NCBI RefSeq assembly: GCF_001548115.1
Contig: NZ_AP014821.1
Location: 372,001-436,000 of the forward strand
Direction of reading: 5' to 3'
DNA: 64,000 nucleotides
Origin: Geminocystis sp. NIES-3709
Lineage (GTDB): Bacteria; Cyanobacteriota; Cyanobacteriia; Cyanobacteriales; Cyanobacteriaceae
Numbering within the stretch: the first letter of the stretch is position 1; every line of letters starts with the position of its first letter. Below the pieces are notes generated by a model. It saw only the letters and a program-made list of their open reading frames with translations, had not been told where the DNA came from and did no database searches. This document shows positions 48,452 to 59,979 of this stretch, piece after piece. The position numbers were made by a program, and so were the translations under genes.

Positions 48452-48952
48452 TTAATTGCGATCGAAATTAACTCGATAATTAAAGTCTTTTGCTTGAGTA
48501 TGACATTCAATGCAACTATTAAGAGTTATAGGCGAAGGTAGAGTTACATTAGGATGAAGAGCGAAAAAATAACGAGATTGTGCCATATATTTCGGTTCGA
48601 TTTCATCTTTTAATAACTGTCGGGAATAATTTTGTAAATATTGCCACATTAGCCGTTGACTAAAACCTGTTAATCCTTCTACTTTTACTCCGTAATGATT
48701 ACCCGGATTTTCTAAGATTCTTTGCCAAGTTTCTTGAGGTAACACCGCAGGAGGTACAGGAATATGACAAGTTGCACAGTTTTCTAGGTAAAAGTCTTCA
48801 CCAATTTTAAAATTTCCTGTGGCTTTATCTACAGATTTGGTATTTTGAACGATCGAATTAGAGCTAAAACCATAGGATGCACCCCATCCTAAAATAACGC
48901 TACAGCTAACGATAAATGCCAAAATAAGCATTTTCCAACGTTTTTTGATCAT
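48452..48952 (-). CDS. Dihaem cytochrome c-type protein
   Basis: The 166-residue precursor has an N-terminal membrane or signal helix (MLILAFIVSCSVILGWGASY). Two haem c sites follow: CATCH (C59, C62, H63) and CIECH (C147, C150, H151). Spacing of nearly 90 residues and the PVPPAVLPQETWQRILENP segment match the dihaem cytochrome c family seen in cyanobacteria. It is probably anchored in the plasma or thylakoid membrane facing the lumen/periplasm and passes electrons; partners are unknown. It is divergent from purK. Confidence 0.87.
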   Translation of the reverse strand: MIKKRWKMLILAFIVSCSVILGWGASYGFSSNSIVQNTKSVDKATGNFKIGEDFYLENCATCHIPVPPAVLPQETWQRILENPGNHYGVKVEGLTGFSQRLMWQYLQNYSRQLLKDEIEPKYMAQSRYFFALHPNVTLPSPITLNSCIECHTQAKDFNYRVNFDRN

Positions 48953-50444: not shown

Positions 50445-51638
50445 TTAGGATTTAGATATAAAAATTTTCTCGATAACTTCTTCTACCACTTTATCAGGAG
50501 TTGAAGCACCAGAAGTTATTCCTACTGTAATTTTTCCTTGAGGAAGCCAGTTATTTTTTATTTCTAAGTCTTTATCAAGGGGTTTATGTTCAATTTTATT
50601 ATTTAACAATATTCGATCGCTACTATCAATATGATAAGAAGGAATCTTATACTCGATCGCAATTTCTTGAAGATGAGTGGTATTAGAAGAATTAAAACCA
50701 CCGATAACCACTATTAAATCTAGCTTCTCCTTAACTAAATCCAACATAGCATCTTGTCTTTCTTGAGTAGCATCACAGATAGTATTGAAACTCATAAAGT
50801 GATCATTTAACTCATTAGGTGGATACTTCTTAAGCATTGTTTGCTCAAATAACTTCCCAATAGCTTCCGTTTCACTTTTCAACATCGTAGTTTGATTGGC
50901 AATACCAAGCCTTTCTAAATCTACATCAGGATTAAAGTCTTCCGAGTAAGCATTCTTAAATTTAGTTAAAAATTCTTCTTTATTTCCTCCCTTGAGAATG
51001 TAATTAGCTACATACTCGGCTTCTATCATATTTAAAACCACAAGATAAGTACCAGCGAAAGAACTTGTAGCGACAGTTTCCTCATGTTTATACTTACCAT
51101 GAATAATAGAAGTATAACTACGTTTTTTATGTTTTTCAACAGAATTCCAGACTTTAGAAACCCAAGGACAAGTGGTATCAACAATAGTACAATCTTTATT
51201 ATTTAATAACTGCATTTCCTCTACACTTGCACCAAAAGCCGGTAAAATAACCACCTCACCGCTATTAACCACGGAAAAATCTTTAATACCCTCATTGAAG
51301 GGAATAAAATCAACATTCATCTCTTTTAACCGTTGATTTACGGAAGGATTATGTATAATTTCATTGGTAATCCATATCTTTTGGGTTGGAAAATGAGTAC
51401 GAGTTTCATAAGCCATGGCTACAGCCCTTTCTACTCCCCAACAAAAACCAAAGGCTTCAGCGAGACGAATTGTTACATTACCTTTTGTTATTTCGTAGTT
51501 ATTTTGACGAATAGTTTGAATTAAACTGCTTTGATATTCTTGATTTAAAGTAGCAGTAACTTCCTCTTGATGTCCAAATCCTTTGCGATGATAATTCTCA
51601 GATTGTTGTAGATTGCGTTTAAAAGTCTTTGTATCCAT
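50445..51638 (-). CDS. ispH: 4-hydroxy-3-methylbut-2-enyl diphosphate reductase
   Basis: IspH is the last enzyme of the MEP isoprenoid pathway, a [4Fe-4S] reductase that uses ferredoxin and makes IPP and DMAPP for carotenoids and chlorophyll side chains. At 397 residues it is the long cyanobacterial/plastid form. The three cluster cysteines are C66 ([14 protein letters not shown]), C157 ([12 protein letters not shown]) and C288 ([14 protein letters not shown]). The substrate-binding HGKYKHEET and GGFNSSNT segments are present. It is convergent with purK and separated from it by a palindromic repeat element. Confidence 0.96.
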
Positions 51639-51870: not shown

Positions 51871-53217
51871 ATGTCAAATTTTTCCCGTCGTCGATTTTTA
51901 GTTACTACTGGAACTTCTGCGATTACCGCAGTTTTCCTCAAAGGATGTTTAGGTAATCCACCAGAGACAACAAGCAGTACATCAAATACAGAAGTTACTC
52001 CCGTTACCTTAACACCCGAAATAACTCCCGAAACTCCTGTCATAAAGTTAGGATTTGCTCCGATTTTTGAAGCTGCACCCTTAATTGTGGCTAAAGAAAA
52101 GGGATTTTTTGCTAAATATGGCATGAATGAAGTAGAAATAGCGAAACAAGCCAACTGGGGCTCGGCAAGAGATAATGTTGAAATTGGTTCGGCTGGTGGT
52201 GGTATTGATGGAGGACAATGGCAAATGCCTATGCCTTATCTTATCTCTGAAGGATTAATCACCAAAAATAATGTCAAAATACCAATGTATGTTTTGGCAA
52301 TGTTGAACACTCAAGGAAATGGTATTGCGATCGCCAAAACTCAAGAAGGCAAAAACATTACCTTAGACATGACTAAAGCGAAAGATTATATAGTCGGCTT
52401 AAAGCAATCAGGAAAACCATTTCGAGCCGCTTTTACTTTCCCCAAAGCAAATCAAGACTTTTGGATTCGTTACTGGTTAGCCGCCGGAGGTATCAATCCT
52501 GATACAGATGTAAATTTAATGACTGTACCTGCCGCCCAAACTGTAGCAAACATGAAAACAGGCTCTATGGAAGGATTTAGTACAGGCGATCCTTGGCCTA
52601 CCCGTATTGTTGCCGATGGCATTGGTTTTATGCCAGCATTGACGGCTCAAATGTGGGCGAATCATCCCGAAGAATATCTGGCTATTCGTGCTGACTGGGT
52701 GGACAAAAATCCCAAAGCGACAAAAGCAGTATTAAAAGCGGTGATGGAAGCTCAACAATGGTGTGACACTCAGAGTAATCGATCGGAATTAGCACAAATA
52801 TTGTCGGGTGCTAACTATTTCAATGTACCCGCTACCGTACTCGAACCAGCTTTAATGGGTAAATACAAAATGGGTGACGGGCAACCAGATATAGATGATT
52901 ACAAACTAGCAGTACAGTACTGGAAAACTGAAAAAGGTAGCGTTTCCTATCCTTATAAGAGCCTAGATTTATGGTTTATTACTGAAAGTGTACGTTGGGG
53001 ATTCTTACCTTCTAGTTACTTAGATAATGCTAAAGCCTTGATTGATAAAGTGAATCGTGAGGATATTTGGAAAGAAGCGGCAAAAGAAGCTGGTATTCCT
53101 GAAGCGGATATTCCTACAAGTACATCAAGGGGAATTGAGAAATTTTTTGACGGCAAAGAATTTAATCCAGAAAATCCCAAGGCTTATTTAGATAGTTTAT
53201 CAATCAAAAAAGTTTAA
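51871..53217 (+). CDS. cmpA: ABC transporter substrate-binding lipoprotein, CmpA-type (bicarbonate) of the NrtA/CmpA family
   Basis: The 448-residue binding protein starts with a combined Tat and lipoprotein signal ([22 protein letters not shown]; Cys26), so it is probably exported folded and lipid-anchored. The family is clear: [34 protein letters not shown] and TGDPWP. Ligand residues point to bicarbonate: [14 protein letters not shown] supplies Thr and Gln six apart, and HPEEYLAIR supplies Glu 78 residues after that Thr. From memory this spacing equals CmpA T192/Q198/E270. NrtA instead has His196 and Lys269. The nitrate reading (NrtA) is the alternative, but no nirA or narB is in the cluster. 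No clean NtcA box was found upstream. Permease, ATPases and an FeS protein follow. Confidence 0.75.
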
Positions 53218-53262: not shown

Positions 53263-54093
53263 ATGGCTACCACCATCAGAACATCAAGAAATAATAGTAA
53301 TTTTTTAAGTAAATTTTGGAAGAAAAATGGTAAAAATATTTTACCGCCCATTTTAGGAATTTTAGGTTTTTTATTAATTTGGCAATTATTTTCAAGTATT
53401 GGATTAGTTAAATTACCGGGGCCAATTTCTCTTATTACTAATGAACGAACTCGCATTTATTTAATGTACCCATTTTTCGATCGTGGTGGTACTGATGTTG
53501 GTTTATTTTGGCAAGCAATGGCTAGTTTACAAAGAGTTTTAATCGGCTATTCTTTTGCGGCAATTGTTGGCATTGGAGTTGGTATTTTAGTTGGTTTAAA
53601 TCCTTTCTTAAATAAGGCATTAGATCCCCTATTTCAATTCTTAAGAACCGTACCTCCTTTAGCATGGGTACCCATTGCCCTCGCTGCATTACAGCAAAAC
53701 CAACCCGCCGCATTATTCGTTATTTTTATTACCGCAGTTTGGCCTATTTTACTTAATACTGTAGTTGGTGTTCAACAAATACCTCAAGACTATATTAATG
53801 TCCAACAAGTTTTACAACTTTCTAATAAAAAATTCTTCTTTAAAATTTTAATTCCTTCTGCTTTACCTTACATTTTTACTGGTTTAAGAATTGCTATTGG
53901 TTTAGCTTGGTTAGCAATTATTGCGGCAGAAATTGTTATGTCTGGTATTGTTGGTATTGGCTTTTTTATCTGGGATTCTTATCAAAATAATTATATCAGT
54001 GACATCATTTTAGCACTAATTTATATCGGTGCAATCGGTTTAATTCTCGATAAATTAATGGCTTGGATTCAATCTAAAATTGTTCGTGAATAG
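53263..54093 (+). CDS. cmpB: ABC transporter permease, CmpB/NrtB-type
   Basis: This 276-residue inner-membrane permease has about six helices and the coupling-helix EAA-like segment PQDYINVQQVLQLSNKKFFF followed by ILIPSALPYIFTGLRIAIGL. It also has WLAIIAAEIVMSGIVGIGFF, and the N-terminal long helix (ILPPILGILGFLLIWQLFSS). These features match NrtB/CmpB/SsuC-type permeases. AGGAGG lies 11 bases before the ATG, a very strong ribosome binding site. It is second in the transporter operon, 45 bases after the binding-protein gene. The bicarbonate versus nitrate choice depends on the binding protein; the permease itself does not decide it. Confidence 0.85.
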   Translation: MATTIRTSRNNSNFLSKFWKKNGKNILPPILGILGFLLIWQLFSSIGLVKLPGPISLITNERTRIYLMYPFFDRGGTDVGLFWQAMASLQRVLIGYSFAAIVGIGVGILVGLNPFLNKALDPLFQFLRTVPPLAWVPIALAALQQNQPAALFVIFITAVWPILLNTVVGVQQIPQDYINVQQVLQLSNKKFFFKILIPSALPYIFTGLRIAIGLAWLAIIAAEIVMSGIVGIGFFIWDSYQNNYISDIILALIYIGAIGLILDKLMAWIQSKIVRE

Positions 54094-54181: not shown

Positions 54182-56182
54182 ATGTCAGTTTTTGTCGCTG
54201 TTGATAATATTGAAAAAGTATTTCCTCTCACTGGTGGAGGTGAATATTTAGCATTAAAAGGAATTAATTTAGAAATTAAAAAAGGTGAATTTATTTCTTT
54301 AATTGGTCACTCTGGTTGCGGTAAGTCCACCCTATTAAATATGATTGCTGGTTTAGATTTACCCAGTGAAGGAATTGTAACTTTAGAAGGGCAAAAAATT
54401 CAAAAACCAGGTCCTGAAAGGATGGTTATTTTTCAAAGTTATTGTCTTTTACCTTGGTTAACTGTTCGTCAAAATATTGCTTTAGCAGTTGATCAAGTTA
54501 TGGCTACTTTTTCCCAATCTGAACGAGATGAAATCATTGAAGAACACATCGACTTAGTGGGTTTACGTCATGCCGTTGATAAGTTACCTAATCAGTTATC
54601 TGGGGGGATGAGACAACGAGTTGCCATTGCTCGTGCTTTATCTATTCGTCCTAAATTACTTTTATTAGATGAGCCTTTTGGAGCTTTAGATGCTTTAACC
54701 AGAGGCAATTTACAAGAACAGTTAATGCAGATTTGCGATCGCTATCAAATCACGGGAATTATGGTAACTCATGACGTGGATGAAGCCGTCTTATTATCTG
54801 ATAAAATCGTCATGTTAACGAACGGGCCAGGATCAAAAATTGGCGGTATTTTAGAAGTAGATATTCCTCGTCCTCGCCAAAGAATGGAAGTAGTAAATCA
54901 TCCTAGTTATTACAGTTTAAGAAGCGAAATTATTTACTTTTTAAACCAACAAAAACGCATCAAAAAAATTCGAGCTCAAAAACAAGGAGTTATCTCTCGA
55001 CATGGCTTAGAAAAAGTTAATTTAGAAATCGGTTTTGTACCTTTAACTGCTTGTGCACCCTTAGCGATCGCGAAAGAAAAAGGATTTTTTGTCAAACATG
55101 GCTTAGATGAAGTTAATTTAGTCAGAGAAACCAGTTGGCGAGGAATTGTTGACGGTATCGCTGGAGGTTATTTAGATGCGGCTCAAATGCCAGCAGGAAT
55201 GCCAACTTGGTTGACGGTTGGTGGCAATCAAGATGAACCTTTGCCCGTTGTAAGTGCTTTGACGATGACTCGTAATGGCAATGGTGTAACTCTCGCTAAA
55301 AAATTTTATGACATGGGAATCCACGATGGCCATCATCTTAAAAGAATGTTATTGGAATCTGTGGAAGAAAATCATACTTTTGGGATGGTACATCCATCAT
55401 CTATGCACAATATTTTACTACGATATTGGTTAGCCGCCGAAGGTATAGATCCAGATCAAGATGTACACTTACAGACTATTCTCCCGGCACAAATGATCGC
55501 CGATTTAAAAGCAGGTAGTATTGATGGTTACTGTGTAGGTGAACCTTGGAATTTACGAGCGGCGATGGAAGGATTTGGCTTCACCGTAGCCACAGATTTA
55601 GAGGTATGGAATGGACATCCGGGGAAAGTATTAGGGGTGAGGGAAGATTGGGCAAACGCCTATCCTAACAGCCATATAGCCCTTGTCAAAGCACTTTTAG
55701 AAGCCTGTCAATATTGTGCTGATGCTAATAATCAAGAGGAAATACGCACTATTTTAAGCGATCGCAAATATTTAAGTACGAATATTGATTACATTCAACT
55801 AGGCGATCCCAATTCTTATAGTTGCAACTTAGAAAAATCTGTCGAATATGCCCACCATCGGTTTTATGGAGACGGCATGAATCGTCCAAGTCGTACAGAA
55901 CATTTATGGATGATGACGCAAATGGCACGATGGGGCGATATTCCTTTTCCTCGCAATTGGGTAGAAATTTTAGAAAGAGTATGTCGGGTTGGTGTTTTTA
56001 GTACAGCTTGTCGTGAATTGGGATTAAGTGACTTAAAATATCGCCGAGAAGCCATCAAACTATTTGACGGTGTGCCTTTTGACGGTGAAGATCCCATCGG
56101 TTATTTAAACCATCTTGAAATTAAGCGTAATATTACCATGGCAGAAATTCCTTTAAATAGTCGTATTTTAATTGCCGCCTAA
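54182..56182 (+). CDS. cmpC: ABC transporter ATPase fused to a solute-binding domain, CmpC/NrtC-type
   Basis: The 666 residues combine an ABC ATPase (1-~255: Walker A GHSGCGKST at 42-50, signature LSGGMRQRVAIARAL, Walker B LLLLDEPFGALD) with a C-terminal domain (~275-660) homologous to the binding protein. This architecture is unique to NrtC/CmpC. The C-domain has FVPLTACAPLAIAKEKGFF, HPSSMHNILLRYWLAAEGI and WNGHPGKVLGVRED. Its His and Lys are 73 residues apart, like NrtA His196/Lys269 and unlike the Gln/Glu set of the upstream binding protein. In NRT the C-domain is regulatory (ammonium response); here it may sense a different anion from the one carried. AAGGAG precedes the ATG. Confidence 0.85.
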   Translation: MSVFVAVDNIEKVFPLTGGGEYLALKGINLEIKKGEFISLIGHSGCGKSTLLNMIAGLDLPSEGIVTLEGQKIQKPGPERMVIFQSYCLLPWLTVRQNIALAVDQVMATFSQSERDEIIEEHIDLVGLRHAVDKLPNQLSGGMRQRVAIARALSIRPKLLLLDEPFGALDALTRGNLQEQLMQICDRYQITGIMVTHDVDEAVLLSDKIVMLTNGPGSKIGGILEVDIPRPRQRMEVVNHPSYYSLRSEIIYFLNQQKRIKKIRAQKQGVISRHGLEKVNLEIGFVPLTACAPLAIAKEKGFFVKHGLDEVNLVRETSWRGIVDGIAGGYLDAAQMPAGMPTWLTVGGNQDEPLPVVSALTMTRNGNGVTLAKKFYDMGIHDGHHLKRMLLESVEENHTFGMVHPSSMHNILLRYWLAAEGIDPDQDVHLQTILPAQMIADLKAGSIDGYCVGEPWNLRAAMEGFGFTVATDLEVWNGHPGKVLGVREDWANAYPNSHIALVKALLEACQYCADANNQEEIRTILSDRKYLSTNIDYIQLGDPNSYSCNLEKSVEYAHHRFYGDGMNRPSRTEHLWMMTQMARWGDIPFPRNWVEILERVCRVGVFSTACRELGLSDLKYRREAIKLFDGVPFDGEDPIGYLNHLEIKRNITMAEIPLNSRILIAA

Positions 56183-56267: not shown

Positions 56268-57110
56268 ATGGAAACATCTACCAAAAAATTCGCTCAAAAA
56301 ATGGAAAAACAACTCTATCAAGACTCATTTTTAACCATCGAAAATGTTTCTAAAGTATATCCAACTCCCACAGGAAGTTACACCGTTCTTCAAGACGTTA
56401 ATTTGAATGTTAATCAAGGAGAATTTATCTGTGTAATTGGTCATTCTGGTTGTGGGAAGTCCACTCTTTTAAATATGGTTTCTGGCTTTGCTCAACCCAC
56501 TTCAGGATCAGTTAATTTGAAAGGTAAACCCATTACTAAACCCGGACCCGATCGTATGGTAGTATTTCAGAATTATGCTCTTTTACCTTGGTTAACGGTA
56601 TTTGAAAACGTCTATCTAGCCATTGACTCCGTCTATCCTCAAAAAAAAGAAGCCGAAAAAAGAGCGATCGTTAGAGAACATTTAGCATTAGTTGGTTTAA
56701 CGGAAGCTGCCGACAAGAAACCTACCCAAATTTCAGGAGGTATGAAGCAACGTACTTCGATCGCCCGTGCTTTAGCTATACGTCCTGAAGTACTTATTTT
56801 AGATGAACCTTTTGGAGCATTAGATCCTATCACTAAAGAAGAATTACAAGAAGAATTACTTAACATTTGGAATGAATATCGTTGTAATGTTTTAATGATT
56901 ACCCATGATATTGATGAAGCCTTGTTTTTAGCCGATCGACTCGTTATGATGACTAATGGTCCTTCTGCTACTATTGGTGAAGTATTAAATATACCTTTTC
57001 CTCGTCCTCGTGACAGAGAACGTATTATGGAAGATCCAACATACTATGATTTGCGTAATTATGCTTTAGATTTTCTCTATAATCGTTTTGCCCACGATGA
57101 TGTGGCTTAA
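56268..57110 (+). CDS. cmpD: ABC transporter ATPase, CmpD/NrtD-type
   Basis: This second ATPase subunit has 280 residues, with Walker A GHSGCGKST, Q-loop VVFQNYALLPWLTVFEN, signature ISGGMKQRTSIARALA, Walker B VLILDEPFGALDP, and the H-loop ITHDIDEAL. It lacks the C-terminal binding domain of CmpC and pairs with it as the heterodimeric ATPase. AGGAG lies ~10 bases before the ATG at 56268. Eighty-five bases after its stop the FeS/CNB fusion gene begins on the same strand, so it probably shares the transcript. Several CGATCG sites occur in the gene. Confidence 0.88.
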   Translation: METSTKKFAQKMEKQLYQDSFLTIENVSKVYPTPTGSYTVLQDVNLNVNQGEFICVIGHSGCGKSTLLNMVSGFAQPTSGSVNLKGKPITKPGPDRMVVFQNYALLPWLTVFENVYLAIDSVYPQKKEAEKRAIVREHLALVGLTEAADKKPTQISGGMKQRTSIARALAIRPEVLILDEPFGALDPITKEELQEELLNIWNEYRCNVLMITHDIDEALFLADRLVMMTNGPSATIGEVLNIPFPRPRDRERIMEDPTYYDLRNYALDFLYNRFAHDDVA

Positions 57111-57195
57111 ATAATGAACAATTAATAATTAACAATTAACATTTTATATTTAATAAATATTTTGTATTTTTTATAACTTTAATATCACAATTTTT

Positions 57196-59979
57196 ATGTT
57201 TAATAAAACTCCAGAAAAAACTATGCACTCTGTTAGGTGGATCTTAACAACTGCTTGGTTTTTGATCATTCTATCTTTATTTTATGATCCGATTTCTCCT
57301 TTTTTAACTTCTCCGGATAATTTAGCTAGTCCATTAAGGGTTAATTTAGATACTTGTGTGGCAGTTCAAGGTAATTGTTTAGAAAAAAATGCTTATTATT
57401 TAGGTGCTCCTATTTTTTGGGGAATTGTTGTCCCTAGTTCTATCTTTATTCTCCTTATTTTTGGTCATGAATTATGGCGTAGAATTTGCCCTTTATCTTT
57501 CCTTTCTCAAATTCCTAGAGCGTTGGGTTGGCAACGTAAAATTAAACGGGTTAGTGCCAATGGTTCAGTACGTTTTGAGATACCTAGAATTGATAAAAAT
57601 TCATGGCTAGGACGTAATTATTTATATTTACAAATGAGCTGGTTTTTTATCGGTTTATGCTCTCGTATTCTCTTTGTTAATGCCGATAGATTAGCCCTAG
57701 CTATTTGGTTATTATTTACTATTTTTATTGCTATTTTTATTGGTTATTTTTTCGGTGGAAAATCTTGGTGTAATTATTTTTGTCCCATGTCTCCTGTTCA
57801 AAAAATTTATGGTGAACCTCAAGGATTATTTACCAGTAAAGCTCATATTGGAGATGATAAGATTACTCAATCTATGTGCCGAATTATTGAAGACAATCAA
57901 GAAAAAAGTGCCTGTATTGCTTGTCAAAGTCCTTGTATTGATATTGACTCCGAAAGAAGTTATTGGGATAGTATCAATCAAACCGATCGTCAATTATTAT
58001 ATTATGGTTATTTTGGTTTAGTGATCGGTTATTTTCTTTACTATTACTTATATGCTGGTAATTGGGATTACTATTTTTCTGGTATTTGGGCTTATGAAAA
58101 AGATCAACTAAATACTCTTTTAAATCCCGGGTTTTATCTTTTTAATCAACCTATTAATATTCCTAAAATTATCGCTGTACCCCTAACATTGGGAATGTTT
58201 ACCTTTATCAGTTATTTTCTAGGTAAAAGTATCGAAAAATTTTATCAAAATAAATATAAAAATAAAATTTCACCAGAGTTAGTTAGACATCGAATATTTA
58301 CTATTTTAACCTTTATAATTTTTGATTTTTTCTTTATTTTTGCTGGTAGATCATGGTTAACTTTATTACCGATAAAAATTCAATATATTTGGGATTTTGC
58401 TTTAGTTTTCTTAAGTTCAATTTGGGTATATCAAACATGGAGAAGAAGTCCAGAAATTTACTCCAAAGAAAGTTTAGCAACTCGTTTTAGAAAACAGTTA
58501 ACAAAATTAGGTTTAAATATTGGTCGTTTTTTAGATGGAAAATCCCTCGAAAATCTTAATACTGATGAGGTTTATGTCTTAGCAAAAGTTTTACCCGGAT
58601 TTAGTAAAGATAAACGTCAAGAAGTTTATAAAGGGGTTTTAAAAGAATCTTTAGAAGAAGGCTATGTTAACACTGTTAGCAGTTTAGAAGTTTTAGAACA
58701 ATTACGATCAGAATTGAGTATTACAGACGATGAACATCGCACCATTTTAACAGAATTAGGTGTAGAAGATCCCTCTTTGCTTGATCCTTCCAAACTACAT
58801 TCTGTCGAAAATTCTGTACGGTTAACTGGTTATCGCAAAGCCTTAGAAAGAATGTTATCTTTACAGCAAAAGGCTTCCCTTGACGAACTTTTAGAAAATA
58901 ATTCTCAGGATATACGCAAATTACGTCAAGAATATTGTATTACTTACCAAGAAGAAGAAGAAATTTTACATGGTTTACAGCCAGAATCAGGAATAATTGC
59001 ACGATCAGAGCATATAATATCACAACTAGAACAATTAATTGAACGTTACCACGCCCTCAATCAACCTCGTTTTCTTCCCCAAGGAGACATTTTGAACTTG
59101 TTAAGAAAAACTGTTAGACAGAAAAAACGTCTTTTAGTGAGAGGATTATTAGAAATTATTGAAAATTGTGAAGATTTAACTATTGCTCGGGAAATTGCCC
59201 GTAGATTAGGAAATATTTCTCCCGGTGTTTTGCCAGATATTTTAGAAAATCCCACTTCTAATTGGTATTATCGATTACAACCAGAAATTTTAAATTTATT
59301 AAGCCAACCTACCAATACAATTCCAACTTGTTCGTTAGATATTGACATACAGACAATTATCAGTCATTTACAAGGGTTATTAATGGAATCCAATCCTATT
59401 ACTCAAGCTATTAGTCTTTATATTCTGGCACAAATTGATTTAAAATTAGCACAAGCAGAAGCTCAAGAATTATTAGTAATAAAAAATCATTTTTTAGTCC
59501 AAGAAACTGCTAATACTTTACTAAAGTCTGACACACTAAATCTATCTAATTTTAACACATTAGAAAAATTAATTTACTTAGGTAATGCTAACTTTTTTGA
59601 GGAGATTCATAGCAATACTTTAATAGCATTAGCTGAATTATCTTACTTTAATAATTATCAAGAAAATCAGGTTATTTCTGATGAAGGAGATACTTGTAGA
59701 GAACTATTATTATTAATTAGTGGTAGAGTAGAAATTATTTTATCTCGTGAAAATGATACTCCCATTATTTCTAGTTTATTACCTGGACAAATTCTCGATG
59801 AATTAGAAGTTTTATCTCATGGAAAACAGTCTGGAAAAATTATTGCAAAAACTAATCCTACAAAAATTTTAGCTGTAGCAATAGATAGTTTTGACGATAT
59901 TTTGGAGGAAGATCATGAATTTTCTCGCCGTATTTTAGAATTAGAAACTAACCGTCTAAAACAACTGATTACAAAATAA
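57196..59979 (+). CDS. NapH-like iron-sulfur membrane protein fused to a cyclic-nucleotide-binding-like domain
   Basis: The 927 residues fall into three parts. Part one (1-~415) is polytopic with cysteines in polyferredoxin-like positions: C98 (RRICPL), C192 and C196 (WCNYFCPMSP), C228, and C240/C243/C247 (CIACQSPC). This resembles the NosR/NapH membrane domain that binds two 4Fe-4S clusters and handles quinol electrons. Part two (~430-815) is helical with HEAT-like repeats (VRQKKRLLVRGLLEIIENCE). Part three (~820-925) is a cNMP-binding-like beta-roll (ISDEGDTCRELLLLISGRVE). Its phosphate cassette is poor (GQILDELEVLSHGKQSGKI; the usual Arg is absent). It follows the transporter genes 85 bases downstream. 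I do not know a named family; redox control of transport is a hypothesis. Confidence 0.72.
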   Translation: MFNKTPEKTMHSVRWILTTAWFLIILSLFYDPISPFLTSPDNLASPLRVNLDTCVAVQGNCLEKNAYYLGAPIFWGIVVPSSIFILLIFGHELWRRICPLSFLSQIPRALGWQRKIKRVSANGSVRFEIPRIDKNSWLGRNYLYLQMSWFFIGLCSRILFVNADRLALAIWLLFTIFIAIFIGYFFGGKSWCNYFCPMSPVQKIYGEPQGLFTSKAHIGDDKITQSMCRIIEDNQEKSACIACQSPCIDIDSERSYWDSINQTDRQLLYYGYFGLVIGYFLYYYLYAGNWDYYFSGIWAYEKDQLNTLLNPGFYLFNQPINIPKIIAVPLTLGMFTFISYFLGKSIEKFYQNKYKNKISPELVRHRIFTILTFIIFDFFFIFAGRSWLTLLPIKIQYIWDFALVFLSSIWVYQTWRRSPEIYSKESLATRFRKQLTKLGLNIGRFLDGKSLENLNTDEVYVLAKVLPGFSKDKRQEVYKGVLKESLEEGYVNTVSSLEVLEQLRSELSITDDEHRTILTELGVEDPSLLDPSKLHSVENSVRLTGYRKALERMLSLQQKASLDELLENNSQDIRKLRQEYCITYQEEEEILHGLQPESGIIARSEHIISQLEQLIERYHALNQPRFLPQGDILNLLRKTVRQKKRLLVRGLLEIIENCEDLTIAREIARRLGNISPGVLPDILENPTSNWYYRLQPEILNLLSQPTNTIPTCSLDIDIQTIISHLQGLLMESNPITQAISLYILAQIDLKLAQAEAQELLVIKNHFLVQETANTLLKSDTLNLSNFNTLEKLIYLGNANFFEEIHSNTLIALAELSYFNNYQENQVISDEGDTCRELLLLISGRVEIILSRENDTPIISSLLPGQILDELEVLSHGKQSGKIIAKTNPTKILAVAIDSFDDILEEDHEFSRRILELETNRLKQLITK

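Follow-up and report, generated by a model that had tools for sequence, protein, structure and literature searches.

The window analysed here is a stretch of 64,000 nt from Geminocystis sp. NIES-3709 (NZ_AP014821.1, positions 372,001-436,000 of the forward strand). With regard to the gene under study, termed the focal gene in the following, and the transporter operon that precedes it, these features were assigned (window coordinates, strand, evidence in brackets):

51871..53217, + strand, cmpA, bicarbonate-binding protein (similarity to solved CmpA)
53263..54093, + strand, cmpB, permease (ntrB family model, common to Nrt and Cmp)
54182..56182, + strand, cmpC, ATPase with a C-terminal solute-binding-like regulatory domain (ABC_tran and NMT1_2, Pfam)
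56268..57110, + strand, cmpD, ATPase (family model)
57111..57195, + strand, AT-rich gap of 85 bases between cmpD and the focal gene (sequence inspection)
57196..59979, + strand, focal gene, ATG start, 927 aa (ORF, Pfam, homologues throughout cyanobacteria)
57196..58440, + strand, eight-helix membrane domain, residues 1-415 (AlphaFold2 model, K+R count)
57355..57378, + strand, C54 and C61, residues 54-61 (invariant in 56 sequences; periplasmic side inferred from topology)
57475..57510, + strand, WRRICPLSFLSQ, residues 94-105, remnant of a CxxxCP/CxxCP motif (invariant; profile alignment)
57766..57801, + strand, WCNYFCPMSPVQ, residues 191-202, full CxxxCP motif with C192 and C196 (Fer4_5 match; invariant)
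57877..57936, + strand, C228, C240, C243 and C247 (C...CxxCxxxC), residues 228-247 (invariant in 56 sequences)
58441..59550, + strand, helical middle, residues 416-785 (AlphaFold model, segment comparison of family types)
59551..59976, + strand, CNB-fold domain, residues 786-927 (Pfam, Foldseek, alignments)

In a preliminary description, the upstream genes had been addressed as a CmpABCD/NrtABCD-type operon. Bit scores and one diagnostic site narrow this to CmpABCD, i.e., the bicarbonate transporter BCT1. The binding protein reaches 628 bits against solved CmpA vs. 441 bits against NrtA, and it carries Glu (HPEEYL) where NrtA has Lys (HPEKAF), at a site that we take to be the position of NrtA Lys269. 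A nitrate transporter (NrtABCD) was ruled out on the basis of this CmpA-type binding protein and of a separate NrtA-like gene, 50% identical, that resides elsewhere in the same genome (G000:C1:3697486). When the CmpR-like box is assumed to read TTA-N7/8-TAA, four such boxes are present upstream of cmpA in the window vs. 1.5 expected; with the same assumed pattern, the divergent cmpA/focal-gene regions of Pseudanabaena are not above shuffled sequences in most cases. A LytB/IspH gene is located just upstream of cmpA on the opposite strand (50445-51638, - strand) and a gene for a dihaem cytochrome c lies further off (48452-48952, - strand).

In full agreement with the earlier account, the focal gene starts 85 bases past the second ATPase gene on the same strand (end of cmpD at 57110, start of the ORF at 57196). 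No terminator-like hairpin was found on the + strand of this gap, a promoter scan of the gap returned hits no more frequently than in shuffled sequences, and tRNA and Rfam searches yielded zero matches. In Pfam, residues 171-205 of the encoded protein match Fer4_5 with 26.3 bits (cut-off 22) and residues 820-906 match cNMP_binding with 43.7 bits (cut-off 27.5). In its AlphaFold model, eight membrane helices are followed by a helical middle part and, at the C-terminus, by a CNB roll. The helices previously called HEAT-like are indeed predicted at residues 456-777; zero matches were obtained to HEAT families, and the label is descriptive only.

Structure prediction with AlphaFold2 on 56 membrane-domain sequences (pLDDT 84.5, pTM 0.85) places the membrane helices at residues 7-29, 70-97, 137-161, 165-186, 263-287, 324-353, 360-382 and 393-415. 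The loops assigned to the cytoplasm contain 22 Lys and Arg residues vs. four in the periplasmic loops, as expected from the positive-inside rule. Nine Cys residues are invariant in the 56 relatives. Seven of them, C98, C192, C196, C228, C240, C243 and C247, had been listed before at exactly these positions, while C54 and C61 had escaped attention. In the predicted topology the former seven reside on the cytoplasmic side together with the C-terminal domains, and C54 and C61 are located outside, where they may form a disulfide or a metal site.

For further interpretation of these residues, another Fer4_5 protein encoded in this genome (822 aa; L204:157-2625, G000:C1:1619900-1620600, at about 1.62 Mb) provides a useful comparison. 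In a profile alignment of the focal membrane domain with this NosR-like protein (probability 60%, E 8.6e-5), C98 falls on the first Cys-Pro motif of the latter, at its second Cys, and C192/C196 fall on the second Cys-Pro motif. Of the first motif, WRRICPLSFLSQ retains the second Cys (C98) only and features WRR (WRRICP) instead of the first Cys in all 56 sequences. The intact WCNYFCPMSPVQ can also be aligned with FCSWVCPLNP of Escherichia coli NapH, and the NapH alignment covers this second motif only. C228, C240, C243 and C247 are likely the ligands of one putative 4Fe-4S cluster, in a loop (residues 228-247) that is poorly predicted by AlphaFold2, with low pLDDT. Like the focal protein, this other Fer4_5 protein combines a CNB domain with a NosR-like Fer4_5 membrane domain; it differs in that its CNB domain is N-terminal, with a sigma54-type AAA domain in between, and in that its Cys motifs are complete, and is a distant profile match only.

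With the NapH/NosR/CcoG polyferredoxins the focal protein has in common the Fer4_5 match, a CxxxCP motif at a helix end, a polytopic domain and a Cys-rich loop on the cytoplasmic side, while it lacks their CxxCxxCxxxCP ferredoxin repeats. Among NCBIfam models none spans the protein above its cut-off, and its relatives score 8.9-12.2 bits to TIGR02163 and TIGR02745, the cut-offs of which are 213 and 317, respectively. The membrane-domain profile found zero matches among PDB sequences, and its fold found nothing among PDB folds at E <= 0.001. We therefore read the NosR/NapH-type membrane domain of the preliminary description as a distant, half-degenerate NapH/NosR relative with a four-Cys loop and a three-Cys site in which one position is possibly open: the Fer4_5 match and one CxxxCP motif stand, and a full domain is unsupported because the first Cys is gone from one of the two CxxxCP motifs and curated models are not matched. 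CcoG/RdxA is an assembly factor for cbb3 oxidase. The weak similarity to CcoG/NapH (E 0.18-0.66) and the predicted periplasmic pair C54/C61 could be taken to indicate a maturation or assembly factor involved in the metal or disulfide chemistry of some part of a transporter. This is highly improbable in our view, as the curated models are not reached and the Ca2+ bound to CmpA is the only metal centre known in BCT1 (PMC13249358).

The C-terminal part matches the CNB domains of HCN, PKA-R and CRP in Foldseek searches and contains two conserved motifs, GDTCREL (with C834) and DELEVL (with E869). Across distinct CNB tails the cassette Glu that holds the ribose (E869) is kept in 74 of 77 and Asp occupies the position of Gly71 in 67, while the Arg holding the cyclic phosphate (the column of CRP Arg82) occurs in none and is Lys in ten. 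The previous observation of a CNB-type roll with a phosphate cassette devoid of Arg thus holds for the focal protein and for all 77 tails. Conservation of DELEVL and GDTCREL argues that the pocket is maintained but changed. Second-messenger control had also been suggested; in its canonical form, by cAMP or cGMP, it is unsupported because all homologues are devoid of the cassette Arg. An ordinary cyclic nucleotide in the standard binding mode is probably not the ligand of this domain. HCN channels and SLC9C1 resemble the focal protein in combining a membrane domain with a C-terminal cytoplasmic CNB fold; they differ in their unrelated membrane domains and in the cassette Arg that is missing here.

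Matches at E <= 0.001 were obtained in 123 of 386 cyanobacterial genomes and are in many cases confined to the CNB domain. The membrane domain plus the next approximately 130 residues also occurs with EF-hands, with FHA plus CNB, or almost alone, and the first part of the helical middle (up to residue ~560) is common to the CNB, EF-hand and FHA types and to most short ones. The protein belongs to a cyanobacterial family in which the Cys-rich eight-helix membrane domain is constant and the cytoplasmic part (CNB, EF-hands, FHA plus CNB, or none) can be exchanged. Versions without any sensor domain comprise 420-425 aa (L153, L156). As the membrane part is constant and able to stand alone while the cytoplasmic parts vary, we take the former as the output and the CNB-like domain as the input. 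The EF-hand version, present in Microcystis (L051, L052, L075-L078, L116-L124) and in others, suggests calcium control of the same membrane domain.

The main reason for regarding the membrane domain as an electron-transfer unit is the pairing of short and FHA paralogues with a reductase. A gene for a flavin-NAD-2Fe2S reductase follows the short or FHA types in 28 of 57 distinct loci (L057:5744-11940, L054, L049, L063 and about 24 more) and the CNB type in one of 76 loci; the Pfam architecture is FHA-FAD-NAD-Fer2 in both examples examined. These reductase-paired paralogues are possibly haem-free NADPH-oxidase-like systems. In some genomes, they are followed by a gene for a CuZn superoxide dismutase (L057, and L054 with one intervening ORF on the opposite strand) or for a vanadium chloroperoxidase-like protein (L065 and L066). 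Together with the EF-hand variants, which recall NOX5, such neighbours would be consistent with outward electron export, in which electrons are passed to O2 or a metal outside and the protons left inside balance the charge of HCO3- entry. NOX5 is indeed comparable in so far as, in sibling branches of the family, an electron-transfer-type membrane domain is likewise accompanied by EF-hands or by an FAD/NAD reductase, the latter encoded by a gene of its own; their domain is, however, predicted to be of the Cys/Fe-S type and not a haem domain, and the likeness is one of arrangement. We regard electron export as decidedly improbable for the focal protein, given that it has no haem and no clear periplasmic redox centre apart from C54/C61, that the predicted Cys sites are otherwise all on the cytoplasmic side, and that superoxide dismutase or chloroperoxidase-like neighbours are absent from the CNB type.

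Association of the CNB type with bicarbonate uptake genes is well supported. The cmpABCD genes lie beside the CNB type in 21 of 76 distinct loci from many lineages, the window excluded, vs. none of 70 loci for the EF-hand, FHA-CNB and short types; an additional cmp-linked gene, that of L050, belongs to the CNB branch and is disrupted by stop codons. Three arrangements around cmp occur. Homologues follow cmpD on the same strand in the window, in L031, L037, L050, L071 and Prochloron (L088), in Chamaesiphon (L094, L100, L102, L106, L111) and in Nostocales (L098, L165, L168, L189), at a distance of 34-296 bp with the exception of 1.6 kb in L189, where the gap is wider because a gene identified by eye as transposase-like (L189:11710-12591) intervenes. 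They are divergent beside cmpA at 264-367 bp in Pseudanabaena (L090, L096, L101, L104, L113) and in L040, and located 491 bp upstream of cmpA on the same strand in Leptolyngbyaceae (L099). In L074 the cmp genes are 4.5 kb away. Beyond cmp, three single cases were noted in which a CNB-type gene is found 599 bp upstream of sbtA (L036), 894 bp downstream of a SulP/BicA-like gene (L089) or 97 bp downstream of a beta-carbonic anhydrase gene (L187). The anion uptake for which a partner had been proposed is hence that of bicarbonate, by recurrent adjacency to cmpABCD in several families, and not that of nitrate. Scattering of homologues without any link to the transporter, named at the outset as evidence against such a role, applies to most CNB-type loci and to all EF-hand, FHA and short ones, while part of the family is linked.

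Co-occurrence with CmpA is strong across the phylum (19 of 23 genomes with the CNB type vs. 64 of 363 without it; Fisher p = 1.5e-10) and weak within the order (34 of 56 vs. 164 of 335; p = 0.07; 29 of 43 with p = 0.016 when 13 deep-branching genomes are left out), and it was for this reason dropped as main evidence. Since the within-order signal is weak, the phylum-wide enrichment is largely attributed to ancestry, and the case rests on adjacency. The two genes are adjacent in about 12 of the 29 order-sample genomes that contain both (both numbers tallied by hand), as compared with about 0.6% expected at random per genome (p about 7e-20), which makes chance adjacency very unlikely. In the phylum sample, the CNB type is absent from most CmpA-containing genomes and is therefore an accessory that is not needed for BCT1 in general.

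An adjacent gene may still be functionally unrelated and owe its place to inherited gene order or to the same low-CO2-inducible promoter. About 70% of the CNB-type loci lie away from cmp, within-order co-occurrence is weak, and the identities of the focal protein and of CmpA plus CmpB correlate across linked loci (r = 0.77), which is expected if the cassette is inherited together. On the other hand, a single CNB branch of the tree (SH-aLRT 99) contains all 20 linked rows, and among its CNB rows the label changes between linked and unlinked at least nine times; several of these changes may represent loss of an ancient linkage. These repeated changes, the three arrangements around cmp and the single cases beside SbtA and the SulP-type gene render a mere neighbour rather unlikely.

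Taken together, we tentatively favour, as a quite conceivable reading, that the focal protein is a regulated membrane electron-transfer (Fe-S) module that serves bicarbonate uptake, with putative cofactor, electron partners and direction. A redox function, as envisaged in the preliminary description, is plausible in view of the invariant Cys residues and the paralogues linked to a flavin/2Fe-2S reductase. The Cys residues at the cytoplasmic face would hold one or two Fe-S clusters, one at C228/C240/C243/C247 and one at the incomplete C98/C192/C196 site. By passing electrons, the membrane domain would connect a soluble carrier (either ferredoxin or, by way of a reductase, NAD(P)H) with an acceptor located within the membrane or beyond it, most likely plastoquinone. 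The CNB-like domain would report a cytoplasmic state and turn the flow on while bicarbonate uptake is running. Such a flow could supply ATP (cyclic) or drain reductant when CO2 is scarce, a benefit insofar as bicarbonate uptake demands ATP and a low-CO2 cell would be over-reduced. It weighs against this module that the cognate reductase is not encoded beside CNB types and that linkage to SbtA, to SulP and to the upstream carbonic anhydrase was noted only once each.

Direct control of transport has to be considered as well. The protein might be a regulatory subunit whose Fe-S domain senses redox state and whose CNB-like domain senses a ligand, and which switches transport by binding CmpBCD (or SbtA/BicA). 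It would differ from the known regulators of BCT1, namely SbtB, the CmpC regulatory domain and CmpR, none of which it resembles and with which the likeness is one of gene neighbourhood. Genetic linkage to cmp is in accordance with such a subunit, and CNB domains gate transporters, as in SLC9C1 and HCN, which are top fold matches. Native BCT1 is inactive in E. coli and unidentified cyanobacterial factors have been proposed (PMC11349869, PMC13249358), all the more reason to retain direct regulation as a serious rival. We nevertheless consider it unlikely, as three unrelated transporter types would require three different contacts, as paralogues pair the same membrane domain with a reductase, which suggests catalysis over sensing, and as most CmpA-containing genomes lack the protein. 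Because more than one transporter type is linked, a common physiological service as provided by an electron-transfer module fits somewhat better than direct contacts.

A more specific and doubtful proposal is that the CNB-type protein is an unrecognised accessory of bicarbonate uptake that would activate or energise BCT1 and, in certain lineages, SbtA or BicA through regulated electron transfer by Fe-S centres, and that it belongs at the same time to a wider family with plug-in cyclic-nucleotide-type, calcium and phospho-threonine sensors. Bicarbonate transporters are being introduced into crop chloroplasts (PMC11349869, PMC13249358), and the focal protein offers a testable candidate for one missing link from photosynthetic electron flow to carbon uptake, while its family illustrates the coupling of a single membrane redox domain to a variety of signals. 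The parts, a polyferredoxin-like membrane domain and a CNB domain, are of known kinds; the way in which they are combined, the family with its modular make-up and the association with bicarbonate uptake appear undescribed, and in the literature covered by our search, which was partial, neither the focal protein nor the family is described.

Several further gene neighbourhoods deserve mention. Some paralogue-reductase operons continue with a gene for a beta-carbonic anhydrase or a Ser/Thr kinase; in L144:2481-6453, paralogue, reductase and beta-carbonic anhydrase are encoded consecutively on one strand. In Nostoc (L153, L154, L156), the sensor-less version is directly followed by a cation/proton-antiporter-like protein, as judged by eye. 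Two Pseudanabaena operons (L040:14732-16489, L090:6431-8158) contain a gene for a protein of 575-585 aa, perhaps a porin, between cmpA and cmpB. A deep CNB-type branch (L046, L047, L191, L192, L195-L197) is encoded in a different conserved operon, where it is preceded by the gene for a ParA/MinD-like ATPase and, in most of these loci, also by that for a protein of ~115 aa.
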